Shown piece after piece: positions 13,508-62,801 of a DNA stretch of 64,000 nucleotides. The position numbers and the translations under genes were made by a program. This DNA comes from Pseudohongiella nitratireducens (GTDB taxonomy: Bacteria; Pseudomonadota; Gammaproteobacteria; Pseudomonadales; Pseudohongiellaceae): the NCBI RefSeq assembly GCF_001642735.1, contig NZ_LWHM01000006.1, positions 62,001-126,000 of the forward strand, given 5' to 3'. Each line of letters opens with the position of its first letter. Position 1 is the stretch's first letter. The notes under the pieces are model-generated. The model had not been told where the DNA came from, searched no databases, and saw nothing but the letters and a program-made list of their open reading frames with translations.

Positions 13508-13710
13508 GTACTATTTGCACTTTTTGAGACGCCGAAGCTTATGAAATTTCAGGGAAAAATCGGAATCCTTGAGATCCCAACTTAAGAAGAAGAGGAAACA
13601 AAAACAGTTTCATAAACCTAGATCAGCAACTTAAAGTAAATTGTGATGTTAGGCTGAATTTTGAGAGGAATACGAAAGAAAAAAAGCACTCTGAACGAGT
13701 CTGAAAAAAA

Positions 13711-14087
<377 letters not shown>

Positions 14088-56131: not shown

Positions 56132-56308
56132 ATGTACATCCCACCATCGACATTGATGATGCTGACATTCTCGTATCTCATTTTCCTGCTCAGCATGGAC
56201 TGGGCACTGGCCGTCGATGGCGCCTGGTATCGTCCCTTTGTTATATGTATCAGCGTCATAGCAGTTGCCGCATGGGCATACCGGGAGAACAATTCAGATG
56301 AACTTTGA
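56132..56308 (+). CDS. cbrX: Small membrane protein, CbrX-like
   Basis: A 58-residue frame beginning MYIPPSTLMMLTFSYLIFLL, with two hydrophobic segments (about 10-21 and 35-49). It starts 5 bases after gluQ and its last 11 bases overlap the cbrA start, so cbrA is probably translated through it. In Pseudomonas a comparable small gene, cbrX, overlaps cbrA and couples its translation; size, position and overlap agree here. I did not compare sequences, so homology is inferred from position. Confidence 0.8.
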   Translation: MYIPPSTLMMLTFSYLIFLLSMDWALAVDGAWYRPFVICISVIAVAAWAYRENNSDEL

Positions 56309-59252
56309 ATTAAGTACCATTTTTGCCGTTGGTGCCGGCTACCTTTGTGTACTGTTCGCTATCGCTTACATCACAGACCGTGGCTGGATTCCAGAAAAAG
56401 TGGTCCACCACCCTGTTGTCTATGTGCTTTCGTTAGGGGTATTTGCCAGCGTCTGGTCTTATTATGCATCGACTGGCAGCGCTTACCGTGACGGCTTTGG
56501 TTATCTGGCGCCCTTTATCGGCATATCGCTGGCTTTTCTGTTGTCGCCACTATTGCTGCGCCCGATTCTGAACCTGACCAAAAACTTCCAGTTAAGCTCT
56601 CTGGCTGACCTGTTGGCATTTCGCTATCGCAGTCCGTGGGCAGGCACAATCACCACCCTGGTCATGCTGATGGGCGTTATGCCGCTGCTGTCGCTACAAA
56701 TCCAGGCCGTTGCCAACACCGTTCGACTGCTGGCGCCAGACTCCTCAGAAACCATCATGGCAGTGGTTTTCTGTATCATGATTACGCTGTTCTCCATATT
56801 CTTTGGTACCGGAAAAGGCTCAGGCCGGGAACGGCATGAAGGACTGGTCGTCACCATTGCTTTTGAGTCTGTGGTGAAGTTGCTGGCCTTGTTGGTCCTG
56901 GGCTTTTTTGCAGTATACAAAGGCTTTGGCGGCTTTGCCGAAATGGAAGCCTGGCTCAATACACAGCCAGAGTTACTACAGCGCCTCAAAGAACCAGCTC
57001 CACCTGGCACCTACCACGTGACGGCACTGATTTTCTTTACCGCAGCCGTGGCAACCCCGCACATGTTTTATATTATCTTCCATGAAAACAACCACCCGCG
57101 AGCACTGAACACTGCCAGCTGGGGACTGCCCTTTTACTTTCTGCTGCTGGGTCTGCCGGTGTTACCTATCTTATGGGCTGCACTCAGCATCAACAGTCAG
57201 TTTGCCATTGAGTATTTCCAGATCACACTGGGATATGACCTTGGAGCACCGGTATTTTCCTTGATTGGTTTTATTGGTGGCTTGTCAGCAGCCAGTGGCC
57301 TGATGATTGTTATCACCCTGTCGCTCTCCACCATGTGCCTGAACCACTTGATTCTGCCCATCTGGCAACCCACTGCCCGACAGGACATTTACCGCTGGCT
57401 GTTATGGAAAAGACGACTGCTGATCGCAGCACTTATCTGGGGCGGCTTTCTCTTCTATTATCTGCCTAACGACAGTCAGAATATCCGGGCTGTCAGCAAC
57501 ATTGGTCTGATCGGCAGCCTGCAGTTTCTGCCTGCGATAATCGCTCTGCTGTATTGGCCACGTGGTAATAAGGTCGGATTTATGTCGGGGCTGGCAGTCG
57601 GCACCAGCATCTGGCTAATATTCCTGTTCCTGCCAGTATCCAGTGGCATTGACCTGATACCGGCCTGGGACCTGAGCACACGCGAGGTGAGTGCGATCTC
57701 ACTGCTGTGCAACGTACTGACCTTCATGGTCGTATCATTCCTGTCACAAAGCTCCAATGAAGAGCGTATTTCTGCTGACATCTGCTCTGTCGACAACCTC
57801 CGCCGACAACACCGTGCCCGCCTGACGGCAGGCTCTCCGGAAGAGTTCATTCGCCAGCTAACCAAACCCCTGGGGGAAAGAACAGCGACCCGCGAGGTCA
57901 TGCAGGCGCTTCGCGACCTGAATATGGAAAGTAATGATCACCGCCCCAAGTCGTTACGCCTGTTGCGTGGACGTCTGGAGGCGAACCTGTCAGGACTGCT
58001 TGGCCCGGCCATTGCCCATGACCTGATCGACCGGTTTCTGCCGTATACCGCAGACAGCGAACCAGGCGCTTCAGACCTGGCAGCAATCGAAACCCGAATC
58101 GAAGCCTACCGCAGTAACCTGTCCGGTATGGCTGCCGACCTGGACAACCTGCGACGTTACCACCGGCAAATTTTGTTGGACCTGCCCCTGGGTGTCTGCT
58201 CATTAGGCCCGGATGACCAGATAATCATGTGGAACCATGCGATGGCAGACATGACCGGTACACCCAGTGATGAAGCAGCGGGACTCCATCTGTCGGAGAT
58301 CGGAGAACCCTGGCACAGCATGTTATACAAATTCCGTGACAACGATGCGCCGCATCAGCACAAAGTCACCGTAAACATCAAAGGCAACAAACGCTTTATC
58401 AGCCTGCACAAAGCTGTCATTGAAAAATCGGACAGCCCAAGGGTTCGACATGATGGCGTGATCATCCTGCTTGAGGATCTGACGGACACAGAGTTACTGG
58501 AAGAAGAACTGGCTCACAGCGAGCGACTCGCATCTATCGGACGCCTCGCAGCCGGGGTCGCTCACGAAATCGGTAACCCTATCACCGGAATCGCTTGCCT
58601 GGCACAGAATATCCGCGATGAAACCAGCAACGATGAATTGCGCAATATGGCTCGGCAAATCATTGAGCAGACTGACCGCACATCACGTATTGTGCAGTCC
58701 CTGGTCAATTTCGCCCACAGCGGCTCCAACAACCGCTCCGAACAGAGAATGGAAGTGGTTCACGTAGCTGAGTGCATTGATGAAGCAATCACACTCGTCA
58801 AGCTGAACAGGAAAGGCAAACACATGCAGTTTGATGTACAGTGTGAGGCGAATGCCAGGCTGAAAGGTGATTCACAGCAACTCCTGCAGATCCTGGTCAA
58901 TCTAATCAACAATGCCCGCGACGCCAGCCCGGAAGAAAGCACAATAACAATACAGTGCGAACATATCGCTGCCTCCGTACAGGTGTCTGTCAGCGATGAG
59001 GGCAGCGGTATTCCGGAAACTATCAGGGATCGGGTGTTTGAACCTTTTTTCACAACAAAGGAACCAGGCGAAGGAACAGGCCTGGGCCTTTCATTAGTGT
59101 ACAGCCTGGTTGAAAACCTTAATGGACATATTGATATAATGCTGGCTTCTGAACGGAAGCAGAATCCGGGCACACGCGTTACCCTGAGCTTCCCTGCCTA
59201 TGAAGCAAAGGAAGATGACAGTGTTTTACGCGACTCCCCTGAGAAGGCTTAG
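56298..59252 (+). CDS. cbrA: Sensor histidine kinase CbrA (SSS transporter fused to PAS and kinase)
   Basis: Membrane sensor of carbon and nitrogen state. The 984-residue protein (Pseudomonas CbrA is about 983) has a sodium/solute-symporter domain with about thirteen membrane segments (residues 1-490), a linker, a PAS-like domain (about 600-690: DLPLGVCSLGPDDQIIMWNHAM), a phospho-acceptor motif with H756 in AAGVAHEIGNP, and a GHKL ATPase domain with LVNLINNARDAS, DEGSGIP and GTGLGLSLVY. The frame runs in from 56265, but the ATG at 56298 is chosen for GGGAG before it, the family N-terminus and overlap with cbrX. CbrB follows after 40 bases. Confidence 0.93.
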   Translation: MNFELSTIFAVGAGYLCVLFAIAYITDRGWIPEKVVHHPVVYVLSLGVFASVWSYYASTGSAYRDGFGYLAPFIGISLAFLLSPLLLRPILNLTKNFQLSSLADLLAFRYRSPWAGTITTLVMLMGVMPLLSLQIQAVANTVRLLAPDSSETIMAVVFCIMITLFSIFFGTGKGSGRERHEGLVVTIAFESVVKLLALLVLGFFAVYKGFGGFAEMEAWLNTQPELLQRLKEPAPPGTYHVTALIFFTAAVATPHMFYIIFHENNHPRALNTASWGLPFYFLLLGLPVLPILWAALSINSQFAIEYFQITLGYDLGAPVFSLIGFIGGLSAASGLMIVITLSLSTMCLNHLILPIWQPTARQDIYRWLLWKRRLLIAALIWGGFLFYYLPNDSQNIRAVSNIGLIGSLQFLPAIIALLYWPRGNKVGFMSGLAVGTSIWLIFLFLPVSSGIDLIPAWDLSTREVSAISLLCNVLTFMVVSFLSQSSNEERISADICSVDNLRRQHRARLTAGSPEEFIRQLTKPLGERTATREVMQALRDLNMESNDHRPKSLRLLRGRLEANLSGLLGPAIAHDLIDRFLPYTADSEPGASDLAAIETRIEAYRSNLSGMAADLDNLRRYHRQILLDLPLGVCSLGPDDQIIMWNHAMADMTGTPSDEAAGLHLSEIGEPWHSMLYKFRDNDAPHQHKVTVNIKGNKRFISLHKAVIEKSDSPRVRHDGVIILLEDLTDTELLEEELAHSERLASIGRLAAGVAHEIGNPITGIACLAQNIRDETSNDELRNMARQIIEQTDRTSRIVQSLVNFAHSGSNNRSEQRMEVVHVAECIDEAITLVKLNRKGKHMQFDVQCEANARLKGDSQQLLQILVNLINNARDASPEESTITIQCEHIAASVQVSVSDEGSGIPETIRDRVFEPFFTTKEPGEGTGLGLSLVYSLVENLNGHIDIMLASERKQNPGTRVTLSFPAYEAKEDDSVLRDSPEKA

Positions 59253-59292: not shown

Positions 59293-60708
59293 ATGACGGT
59301 ACCGCATAGAGTTCTGGTAGTTGAAGATGAACAAGTGATTCGCACGGCCCTGCGCCGGTTGCTCGAGCGTCATGATTACGTGGTCAGTGAAGCCGGTTCG
59401 GTCAAAGATGCTGCAGCGATTTTAAAGAAAGAGACTTTCGATATCATCGTCAGCGACCTGAGACTACCGGGTGCGCCGGGTACTGATATTATCAAGGAAA
59501 CGCGGACGCCGGTGCTGATCATGACAAGCTACTCAAGCTTGCGCTCGGCCATTGATGCCATGAAGCTGGGAGCGGTTGATTACATCCCCAAACCCTTTGA
59601 ACACGAAGAAATGCTTCAGGCTGTCGCCCGCATCATCGAAGATCATGCATCAAAGGCTAAGGAAGCAAGGCCCTCAGACAGCGCACCAGCAACCGCGCCG
59701 CACGATTTACCTGATGAGCCGCCCGTACCTGGCATGATTGGCAGCTGTCCGCAAATGATGGAGCTGTTTCGCCGAATCCGTAAAGTCGCCATGACCAACT
59801 CCACCGTTTTGATCAATGGCGAATCCGGTACCGGCAAGGAACTGGTGGCACGTGCAATCCACGACCTCAGTGACCGCCGCGAAGAAGAGATGATTTCTGT
59901 CAATTGTGCCGCCATTCCCGAAAACCTCATCGAATCGGAACTGTTCGGCCATGAAAAGGGCGCCTTTACCGGAGCAACAGCCAACAGAACCGGCCTGGTC
60001 GAAGCTGCCAACAACAGCACGTTATTCCTGGATGAGATCGGAGAATTACCCCTGGATGCACAGGCTCGCCTGTTACGCGTCCTGCAGGAGAGCGAAATAC
60101 GTAAAGTCGGCTCAGTGCAGTCAAGAAAAGTCGATGTGCGTCTGGTTGCCGCCACTCACCGGGACCTGAAACAGCTGGTCATCGATGGTGACTTTCGTGA
60201 AGACCTGTATTACCGGATCAATGTTATGGCACTGCTGTTACCACCTCTGAAAGAACGCGGTAACGACATACTGGAACTGGCTGACGCGATACTTGAGCGC
60301 ACCTGTAAGCGCCTGAAATCACCATTGCTGAACTTTACAGAGGGCGCGACACAGGCCATTTCCACCTATCCGTGGCCAGGTAATGTGCGAGAGCTGGAAA
60401 ACGCCATTGAAAGAGCCGTGGTTCTGGCTGAAAGCGATAAAATTGGTCCGGAGCTACTCGCCATCGACCTGAATAACAAAAAAACCATTCGACCGCTGAC
60501 TGAACGGGATCAGACCAGCGCTGAATCACTCGAGGCCAGCGTCCCTTCAGAAGAGCTATCATTAGAAGATTACTTCCAGAAATTTGTATTGGAACATCAG
60601 GATCAAATGAACGAAACCCAGTTGGCAAAGAAGCTGGGGATCAGCCGCAAATGTCTCTGGGAAAGACGTCAACGATTTGGTCTGCCGCGAAAGAAAAAAC
60701 AGGCATAA
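59293..60708 (+). CDS. cbrB: Response regulator CbrB (sigma-54 activator)
   Basis: NtrC-family regulator: receiver domain (1-120, phosphorylated D55 in VSDLRLPG), AAA+ domain with Walker A GESGTGKE (176-183), the sigma-54-contact loop GAFTGA (from 223), LFLDEIGELP and the R-finger region, and a C-terminal Fis-type HTH (NETQLAKKLGISRKCLWERR). Pairs with CbrA. Its likely target, a sigma-54 promoter with GG-N10-GC spacing, starts 122 bases past its own stop. RpoN is also encoded in this window. Confidence 0.94.
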   Translation: MTVPHRVLVVEDEQVIRTALRRLLERHDYVVSEAGSVKDAAAILKKETFDIIVSDLRLPGAPGTDIIKETRTPVLIMTSYSSLRSAIDAMKLGAVDYIPKPFEHEEMLQAVARIIEDHASKAKEARPSDSAPATAPHDLPDEPPVPGMIGSCPQMMELFRRIRKVAMTNSTVLINGESGTGKELVARAIHDLSDRREEEMISVNCAAIPENLIESELFGHEKGAFTGATANRTGLVEAANNSTLFLDEIGELPLDAQARLLRVLQESEIRKVGSVQSRKVDVRLVAATHRDLKQLVIDGDFREDLYYRINVMALLLPPLKERGNDILELADAILERTCKRLKSPLLNFTEGATQAISTYPWPGNVRELENAIERAVVLAESDKIGPELLAIDLNNKKTIRPLTERDQTSAESLEASVPSEELSLEDYFQKFVLEHQDQMNETQLAKKLGISRKCLWERRQRFGLPRKKKQA

Positions 60709-60710
60709 AC

Positions 60711-60849
60711 TGTTACCGATACCCATCTACCCATAACTATAGGGCAATTTGGTAACACATTAGACAAATGGCCTAGTTTAAATGGACTAGTAAAAACACT
60801 AAGTTACTGTTAATAAACAATTTACTAATTCTGGCACGGTAAGTGCATT
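60711..60849 (+). promoter_or_regulatory. Sigma-54 promoter with probable CbrB sites
   Basis: TGGCACGGTAAGTGCA (60832-60847) has the invariant GG (60833-60834) and GC (60845-60846) exactly ten bases apart, differing from the sigma-54 consensus by one base. Upstream are TGTTACC (60711-60717) and GGTAACA (60751-60757), an inverted pair of the kind bound by CbrB in Pseudomonas, and an isolated GTTAC at 60813. A CTAGT-N8-ACTAG palindrome (60773-60790) lies between. Start expected near 60858. Confidence 0.75.
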
Positions 60850-60857
60850 ATATACGT

Positions 60858-61100
60858 TCAATAACAATAACAAGACACAATAAAAATAACCTCTGATAAT
60901 AAAAACAATGGCATCCAACGTCGGTGCACAAAAAAAATAACAATAACCAATCAGGCGCATAGAACAGACCGGGACTTCCGGCAACTATGAACACTGTATA
61001 TTAGCAAGGCACTTAATGTGGTGCCGCCCAAACAAAAACAACAATATATAACAATAAAAACAATACATACCTTCCTTGCGGGGGGGTCGAGTCACCCCCC
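60858..61100 (+). ncRNA. crcZ: Probable CrcZ-like small RNA (Hfq/Crc decoy)
   Basis: No protein gene lies between cbrB and pcnB. Downstream of the sigma-54 promoter are five A-rich, T-poor tracts with AAnAAnAA motifs: 60860-60874, 60875-60890, 60896-60910, 60928-60950 and 61029-61066. Such tracts in Pseudomonas CrcZ bind Hfq with Crc and relieve catabolite repression. A GGGGGGT/ACCCCCC hairpin (61081-61100) is a plausible 3' end but lacks a T run, so the end is uncertain; RNA may extend toward pcnB. Identity is inferred from position, promoter and motif content, not from alignment. Confidence 0.65.
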
Positions 61101-61250
61101 AGAACATTTCCACCTGCAAACTCCCGCAACTTCAGTGTATTATTACCCTTTTGATATCTGGCACTTATTTTGTTGCCTGAAATCCGCTATTGTCGGTATC
61201 AGCAACCTTGTCAGGTATACCCCTATGTCAAAATGGAAACCAGAGTTACA

Positions 61251-62801
61251 ATGCTGAAGCGAATTGCCAAACTTTTCCTAGGCAAATCAACAGTCTCGGC
61301 GCCAGCGAAGAATGCTGAAAAACCCGCTGAAACCGACTACACACCCCGACCAGCCAAACAGGGTCAGCGCCAGCAACGCAAATCGACGGCAAAGAAACCC
61401 CAAGATGGCAACTCCCCTGCTGACGGTTTTACGCTCTCGCCCCAGGATCTGGCCAGTATTACACCAGCAGACGTCAGTATTGTTAAACGTGATGCACACA
61501 ATATTTCCCGCCGGGATATCTCCCCTGCCGCGCTGAAAGTACTATATCGCCTCGGTGATGCAGGCTATCAGGCCTTCCTGGTCGGTGGTGGGGTCCGAGA
61601 TTTGCTGCTTGGTGGCCACCCGAAAGACTTTGATATCTCTACCGATGCAACGCCCGAGCAGGTAAAGTCTGTTTTCAGAAACGCACGCATCATTGGCCGC
61701 CGCTTCAAAATTGTTCACGTCCGGTTTGGCCGAGAGATTATTGAGGTAACGACCTTTCGCGCCCACCATGACACCGAGCCCCTGACAGAAGACCAGGATC
61801 GAAAGTCCATTAAACACCTTGATTCAGCGCATGCTGCCAGCGGCATGATTCTGCGCGATAACGTTTATGGCAAGATCGACGAAGATGCCATACGCCGGGA
61901 CTTTAGCGTCAACGCGATTTACTACACGACAAAAGGGTTTGCGCTGCTCGACTTCGTTGACGGGCTGGCGGACATAGAGGCTCGCCAGATCCGCATGATA
62001 GGCGATCCTGCGGTGCGCTACCGCGAGGATCCAGTACGTTTGCTCAGAGCGGTCAGGCTGGCTTCCAAGCTTGGTTTCGAGATAGAGTCTGCGACCAAAG
62101 CCCCGATTAAAGAACTGGCGCCATTACTCGCCTCCATCTCCTCTGCACGCCTGTTCGATGAAACCGTCAAACTCTTCACCACAGGTAAGGCTCAGCAGAC
62201 TTTCAGTATGCTGAGAGAGTATGACCTGGCCGACTATCTGTTTAAACCTGCTCTGGAAGCATTGGACCAGGCCAAACCGGTTCATGCCCGCATACTGGAA
62301 AAAGCGATGAGTAACACTGACTTGCGGCTATCACAAGGCAAGTCAATTACCCCTGCATTCATGTATGCCGCCCTGCTTTGGCCTGCCCTGCATCAGCAAC
62401 TTGCGCAATTGCACAACAACAGTGGTCGTCCCCCAATGCCAATACTGCAGCAAGCCGCTTCCCAGGCCATTGTGGAGCAGCTGAAGTTTACCGCCATTCC
62501 CAAGCGGTTGACGGCCATGATGCGCGAAATTTGGGAGCTACAATGGCGACTAGCACCCCGTTCTGCCAAACAGGTGGAAAGTGTGTACTCACATCCCAAA
62601 TTCCGGGCAGCCTACGACTTCCTCGTATTACGTGAGGAAGCCGGCGAGGATACCGCCCAGGCAGGGCAATGGTGGACAGCGTTTCAAGCCTGCGACAATG
62701 CCGGCCAGCGCGCTATGATGGAGCAGTTGGTACCGCCCGCTGGCAAGAAGAAAAACAAGCGACGACGTCGCAAAAAACCCCAGGAGACCGGCAAGGCGTG
62801 A
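61251..62801 (+). CDS. pcnB: Poly(A) polymerase I
   Basis: Adds poly(A) tails that direct RNA decay. The 516-residue protein has the nucleotidyltransferase motif LVGGGVRDLLLGGHPKDFDIST (metal aspartates DFD), RRDFSVNAIYY, and an arginine/lysine-rich C-terminal tail (KKKNKRRRRKK). The frame opens at 61170, but the ATG at 61251 (MLKRIAKLF) fits the family. It follows the crcZ-like region directly, and its stop overlaps the next gene. Confidence 0.94.
   Translation: MLKRIAKLFLGKSTVSAPAKNAEKPAETDYTPRPAKQGQRQQRKSTAKKPQDGNSPADGFTLSPQDLASITPADVSIVKRDAHNISRRDISPAALKVLYRLGDAGYQAFLVGGGVRDLLLGGHPKDFDISTDATPEQVKSVFRNARIIGRRFKIVHVRFGREIIEVTTFRAHHDTEPLTEDQDRKSIKHLDSAHAASGMILRDNVYGKIDEDAIRRDFSVNAIYYTTKGFALLDFVDGLADIEARQIRMIGDPAVRYREDPVRLLRAVRLASKLGFEIESATKAPIKELAPLLASISSARLFDETVKLFTTGKAQQTFSMLREYDLADYLFKPALEALDQAKPVHARILEKAMSNTDLRLSQGKSITPAFMYAALLWPALHQQLAQLHNNSGRPPMPILQQAASQAIVEQLKFTAIPKRLTAMMREIWELQWRLAPRSAKQVESVYSHPKFRAAYDFLVLREEAGEDTAQAGQWWTAFQACDNAGQRAMMEQLVPPAGKKKNKRRRRKKPQETGKA

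Follow-up and report, generated by a model that had tools for sequence, protein, structure and literature searches.

The 542-bp gap between cbrB and pcnB (60709-61250) of a marine Pseudohongiella, which belongs to a family other than that of Pseudomonas, very probably encodes an RNA of the CrcZ type, about 245 nt long, which sigma-54 polymerase would transcribe under the control of CbrB and which would titrate Hfq without Crc. A sequence-only reading of the window, that is, the whole 64-kb stretch of DNA analysed, had proposed that such a regulatory RNA gene exists in this lineage, and synteny, promoter, A-rich tracts, a sub-threshold Rfam match and conservation all support the proposal. The locus resembles that of Pseudomonas CrcZ (RF01675) in its place between cbrB and pcnB, its CbrB half-sites, its sigma-54 promoter, its six A tracts and a hairpin near the 3′ end, but it differs in scoring under the Rfam cut-off, in having no T run after the hairpin and in belonging to a genome in which we found no Crc.

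The locus and its predicted RNA

The genes concerned close the window and all lie on the + strand, in the order tRNA-synthetase-like gene (which we take to be gluQ), small ORF in the cbrX place, cbrA, cbrB, gap, pcnB, deoxynucleoside kinase gene and panB. CbrA (56298-59252) carries PAS, HisKA and HATPase domains according to Pfam; its N-terminus is presumably transporter-like, a part that has no Pfam match and is backed by conservation over the full protein length. CbrB (59293-60708) has a receiver and a sigma-54 interaction domain, so that the pair shows the makeup of CbrAB, a transporter-fused histidine kinase adjoining an NtrC-type regulator, with the kinase and regulator domains identified by Pfam. 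CbrA has been published as a transporter-fused protein (PMC7096432, available portion). The cbrX-like ORF (58 aa, 56132-56308), named by position only and without a match in a Pfam search, shares 11 nt with the beginning of cbrA; in P. putida the cbrX/cbrA overlap is 17 nt (PMC6591292, available portion). Downstream of the gap, pcnB (61251-62801) is identified as a poly(A) polymerase gene by TIGR01942 (502 bits) and by Pfam. Gene order and domain matches thus bear out the CrcZ-type position that had been claimed for the gap, while the accompanying remark on folK is corrected: the gene between pcnB and panB is the deoxynucleoside kinase gene and not folK.

The promoter region begins with two predicted CbrB half-sites on the + strand, TGTTAC (F, 60711-60716), which opens the conserved block TGTTACCGATACCCATCTACCCA, and GTAACA (R, 60752-60757), located 41 bp after F. 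Both motifs are published CbrB half-sites, and neighbouring sites in P. putida are 20-25 bp apart (PMC6296734, available portion), against the 41 bp found here. They are followed by the putative sigma-54 promoter TGGCACGGTAAGTGCA (60832-60847, +), which matches 11 of the 12 consensus letters with GG-N10-GC spacing. This is the best sigma-54 site of the window, in which no second GG-N10-GC site attains 11 consensus letters. Both the promoter and the upstream TGTTACC/GGTAACA sites had been noticed in the sequence-only reading, and both are confirmed. Moreover, a search of the 3.4 Mb genome for half-site, half-site and sigma-54 box in succession gave a single match, at the cbrB-pcnB gap, and none for the reversed pattern.

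The predicted RNA (60858-61100, +, about 243-245 nt) would start 12 nt after the promoter GC and end at the 3′ hairpin, both ends being predictions. It contains six A tracts, AATAACAATAACAA (60860-60873), AATAAAAATAA (60879-60889), AATAAAAACAA (60898-60908), AAAAAAAATAACAATAA (60930-60946), AACAAAAACAACAA (61031-61044) and AACAATAAAAACAA (61050-61063), all on the + strand; the - strand of the gap has none. The earlier claim of tracts restricted to one strand therefore holds, with a count of six and not five. Together, these AAN tracts cover 81 nt, whereas dinucleotide shuffles of 60857-61137 gave a mean of 12 nt and none of the 2000 shuffles reached 81. The motif AAHAAHAAHAAHAA has 17 matches genome-wide, five of them (two overlapping) inside the gap, a count that comes without a reversed control since the motif reads the same backwards. 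Other strong A tracts occur at 12 places in the genome outside the gap and are not obviously catabolic leaders: five lie 26-88 nt upstream of the start of an ORF on the same strand (L221, L223, L229, L230, L231), those of L229 and L230 being also at the 3′ end of another ORF, and the remaining ones are within ORFs or have no ORF close by. A scan of the window for A tracts near starts returned one case, in a doubtful ORF.

The hairpin (61080-61100, +) pairs GGGGGGG with CCCCCC and is preceded by CTTCC. Throughout the genus it lacks a following T run, and the 3′ end of the RNA is therefore placed by prediction. In an alignment of this hairpin and those of 29 relatives, hand-picked from 39 distinct ones (the ten omitted include the T-run-bearing L090 and L109), six of the eight pairs vary on both sides in some rows. 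No shuffle out of 500 attained the covariation score, although kinship among the rows can make this test look too favourable; 31 of 500 attained the same count of pair types, and slid versions fell far below. Folding of the whole predicted RNA is not clearly better than chance (z -1.55). The CTTCC ahead of the hairpin (61071-61075) is kept in most aligned relatives.

Could the gap simply be an AT-rich intergenic relic, in which A runs and promoter-like sites arose by chance? An A-rich composition does by itself lift some of the scores, but the tract coverage lies beyond every shuffle, the promoter pattern is unique in the genome, the hairpin covaries, and tracts and sites are conserved in dozens of relatives, so that we regard a relic as next to inconceivable.

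The covariance search suggested with the CrcZ-type reading gave a divided result. The RF01675 model has one match in the genome at E 0.001, which falls in the gap (60877-61131, 34.9 bits, E 1.8e-7 for the genome) and aligns the model end to end (model positions 1-398), with a composition bias of 9.4 bits. This score is under the gathering score of 95 bits, and we therefore file the locus as a CrcZ-like variant and not as a member of RF01675. Indeed, at Rfam gathering scores the window yields no CrcZ match, the one reported here having emerged only under an E-value threshold and when the genome was searched with this family alone; the sole match within the window at these scores is RNase P RNA class A (13708-14086, - strand). 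An InvR match on the opposite strand (25.9 bits, cut-off 60) was taken as chance. When the CrcZ model was run across 37 genomes, our own included, 21 matched. These comprise the 15 Pseudohongiella genomes without exception, two of the nine taken from elsewhere in the family and four of the 13 taken from outside it, one of which exceeds the cut-off. At E 0.01, Rfam CrcZ matched two of eight loci from other families. The Rfam CrcZ model is a poor guide outside Pseudomonas.

Conservation, loss and multiplication

Comparison of the gap with those of related genomes showed that the promoter and the A-rich tracts are kept. Half-sites, sigma-54 box, tracts and TTACCTTCCTTGCGGGGGGG...CCCCCC are all conserved blocks in an alignment of 17 loci, 15 from the genus and two from other genera of the family. 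All 15 Pseudohongiella genomes, including our own, have the sigma-54 box, six or seven + tracts, no - tract and the hairpin, and 14 have the half-site pair; the contig of the fifteenth begins past the half-sites. Of the 80 titled loci in which a CbrA relative occurs, four are without cbrB, 11 without pcnB, six have gaps shorter than 300 bp and 59 have longer gaps. At least four + tracts were found in 58 of these 59 gaps (>=300 bp) and four on the - strand in none, with totals of 350 tracts on the + strand against 38 on the - strand; in the tract-free exception (L103), pcnB is matched only in part and there seems in fact to be no gap. The same 59 gaps contain the sigma-54 box in 53 cases, the F..R pair in 52 and both in 48. 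Furthermore, the offset between F and R is constrained: in the 52 gaps with the pair it is 39-41 in 47, 33-34 in three and 22 in two, both from Alcanivorax. Two Alcanivorax gaps (G048 and G049) have half-sites and four tracts without a good sigma-54 box. Of two individual loci, L301 (G021) is a genuine crcZ-like locus and L305 (G016) was judged not to be one. Two MAGs titled Klebsiella pneumoniae and Rhodoferax (L104 and L040) carry a CbrA 69% and 77% identical to that of the window together with a crcZ-type locus, and on both grounds their titles look wrong.

The RNA gene can also be lost. In seven relatives that keep CbrAB (L101, L103, L105, L108, L110, L111, L112), pcnB adjoins and the RNA gene is absent; the promoter pattern was not found in the genomes of these seven, three of which matched the reversed control.

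Across the order, the promoter pattern was found in 55 of 195 Pseudomonadales genomes (33 of 96 genera), and its reversed control in four genomes. We fetched 40 of the matching places, picked across families: 31 have cbrB (16 families, our own included), with 2-8 tracts per 400 nt, and 30 of these also have pcnB; two (f8) have pcnB only, and two (f6) represent additional copies at other sites, with three or four tracts. In f2 the promoter and pcnB are present and the contig begins before cbrB could appear. The two f8 loci, L193 (G218) and L194 (G180), place an RNA gene ahead of pcnB, with no cbrB match in about 4 kb upstream. Five places (L195, L200, L204, L215, L219), with 0-1 tracts and neither cbrB nor pcnB, were taken as chance. 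The locus is thus traced, fully or partly, to 18 Pseudomonadales families: our own, 14 further ones with both cbrB and pcnB in view and three (f16, f2, f8) with one of the two. Pseudomonadaceae may be among the 18. A class-wide search for the pattern gave 6 of 184 genomes, our own included, against two for the controls, and the other five have neither + tracts nor cbrB.

In some families the unit is multiplied. Seven loci from f38, f14 and f45 hold 18 tandem units in the cbrB-pcnB gap: two units in L210 (G073) and L211 (G103), three in L212 (G193) and four in L213 (G129), all f38; three in L187 (G087, f14); and two each in L189 (G124) and L190 (G170), both f45. Every unit has a sigma-54 box and 2-6 tracts, and the two half-sites are exact in 16 of the 18, the exceptions being unit 1 of L210 and unit 3 of L187, which show R only. 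Units 3 and 4 of L213 are 96% identical, the other pairs 51-60%. Outside the cbrB-pcnB region, additional CrcZ-like copies reminiscent of CrcY or CrcX were seen in L206 (G179), L208 (G028) and L023 (G030).

These arrangements bear on a different reading of the gap, in which it would produce not a free RNA but a long CbrB-controlled leader of pcnB, with the A tracts regulating poly(A) polymerase in cis. That the predicted RNA and pcnB lie on the same strand, and that the Pseudohongiella hairpin has no T run, would fit such a leader. We consider it improbable, on several grounds. A candidate -10 element of pcnB, TGTATTAT (61136-61143, +), belongs to a motif, TGTAT[TC]AT, that recurs in the pcnB-proximal half of 48 of the 58 relatives' gaps against 3 out of 1990 flanking windows of equal size, these control windows being mostly coding and less AT-rich than the gaps. 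This motif may serve as pcnB's own promoter, and if so it argues for two transcription units. Moreover, T runs do follow the hairpin in some relatives (L090, L109, L115, L117), terminators are flagged after 8 of the 18 tandem units, all in f38, and the extra copies of f6 (L206, L208) lie away from cbrB-pcnB altogether.

Hfq and the relatives of Crc

Hfq is present in the genome and, as judged from its residues Y25, L26, I30, L32, Q33, Q52 and T61, it has the distal A-R-N site of the Hfq of the Hfq/Crc system, the residues for A-R-N binding being those named in the available portion of PMC6422490. According to the available portion of PMC4063720, the CrcZ of P. aeruginosa has six A-rich stretches, binds and titrates Hfq and relieves Hfq repression, the Hfq Y25D protein fails to bind it, and the role of Crc is called ancillary and unknown; at 407 nt, that RNA is longer than the approximately 245 nt predicted here. 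The distal-face residues of Hfq and this precedent lead us to read the Pseudohongiella RNA as a Crc-free Hfq decoy.

What then stands in the place of Crc? The genome has five PF03372 proteins, two of which are ExoIII-type by NCBIfam; the Crc/NApe profile matched only these same two, and the remaining three were judged by eye only. One has its best matches among ExoA/APE types and gives 113 bits with P. aeruginosa Crc. The other, at C27:207048-207851 (L120, L240), is NApe-like, with 259 bits for Neisseria NApe against 189 for P. aeruginosa Crc. Of the proteins found in the genome it is the one nearest to Crc, and its active site is intact. It sits on a long branch, more diverged than its counterparts in the genus, which may reflect a different origin or fast evolution. 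The genome scan suggested earlier for both genes was thus positive for hfq and negative for crc, for which it returned only an AP-endonuclease relative. As the only such relative has an intact active site, our working model is Hfq titration without Crc.

In a tree of 48 rows, P. aeruginosa Crc shares a clade (100/100) with 28 proteins, one per genome, and this clade branches from an NApe-like grade. The 28 genomes represent 17 other families and each has a promoter-pattern or CrcZ-model match; the Crc clade is therefore present in 28 of the 28 crcZ-positive genomes checked from these families. The likeness to the Hfq/Crc repression complex (PMC6422490, available portion) does not extend to Crc in our family: by Crc/NApe profile scores, none of 39 Pseudohongiellaceae genomes has a Crc-clade protein, the matches falling either at 412-470 bits, as NApe-like, or at 199-223 bits, as XthA-like, with one genome giving no match, whereas members of the Crc clade score at least 256 bits; the family proteins were classed by score, and 11 of them also by tree. 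In Alcanivorax G048 and G049 nothing closer than a distant ExoIII type came up, at 64-70 bits (99 bits for G048 in another search).

The NApe-like protein might itself act as Crc with the RNA, being the closest Crc relative of the genome (189 bits against 113 for the other paralogue) and belonging to the grade from which the Crc clade arises. This is unlikely, however. The full catalytic set is intact in all 14 NApe-like rows and in none of the 28 Crc-clade rows. K135, K139, R140 and R141, which contact RNA in Hfq/Crc structures (PMC6422490, available portion), are present in all 28 Crc rows, whereas our protein has A, T and G at positions 135, 139 and 140, and none of the seven NApe-like rows of the family has K139 or R140. 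Both of these residues are also present in three NApe-like rows out of 14, each from outside the family, so that this pair alone is no mark of Crc; at the other published contacts (K155, R196, R229, R230, F231), members of the Crc clade differ among themselves. Furthermore, the NApe-like protein is retained in the seven relatives without the RNA gene, and in some family genomes no protein of this kind turned up, one of them being G021, where the RNA gene is present.

CbrAB and CrcZ across Pseudomonadales

In the Crc-free scheme that we favour, exhaustion of good carbon sources would lead CbrA to phosphorylate CbrB, which would bind TGTTAC/GTAACA and drive sigma-54 polymerase from 60832-60847. 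The RNA, made on CbrB's order, would then act in Pseudohongiellaceae as an Hfq decoy without Crc, and soaking up Hfq would release the genes for food use.

CrcY (P. putida, Azotobacter) and CrcX (P. syringae) are sister RNAs of CrcZ, and the tandem or extra units of other families resemble them as added copies. Our genome differs in having one copy only, by both model and promoter pattern, and f38, f45 and f14 differ in carrying their extra copies head to tail inside the cbrB-pcnB gap. Taken as a whole, we lean towards a view of CbrAB-CrcZ as an order-wide Pseudomonadales circuit whose core would be Hfq titration alone. Crc, a pseudo-enzyme, would be an accessory that can be uncoupled from this core; Pseudohongiellaceae would lack it, and so, it seems, would two Alcanivorax genomes. 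Other families would have amplified the decoy, lining up two to four promoter-RNA units head to tail.

Our search of the literature, in which subscription papers were mostly out of range, found nothing on CrcZ in Marinobacter, Alcanivorax or Oceanospirillales, where an earlier report is possible, and nothing on an sRNA in Pseudohongiella. Two papers came up for CrcZ with Halomonas; in their available portions, one has Halomonas only among its references and the other deals with Stutzerimonas. Transcripts of cbrA/cbrB have been reported in a seawater metatranscriptome (PMC5073097, available portion). CbrAB is stated to be confined to Pseudomonadaceae in the available portions of PMC8871633 and PMC6296734, one of which adds that descriptions of the cbrA-cbrB-crcZ order come only from Pseudomonas and Azotobacter; we find the locus, at least in part, in 18 Pseudomonadales families, our own included. 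A lineage with a decoy RNA and Hfq and without Crc would offer a natural test of what Crc contributes to catabolite repression.
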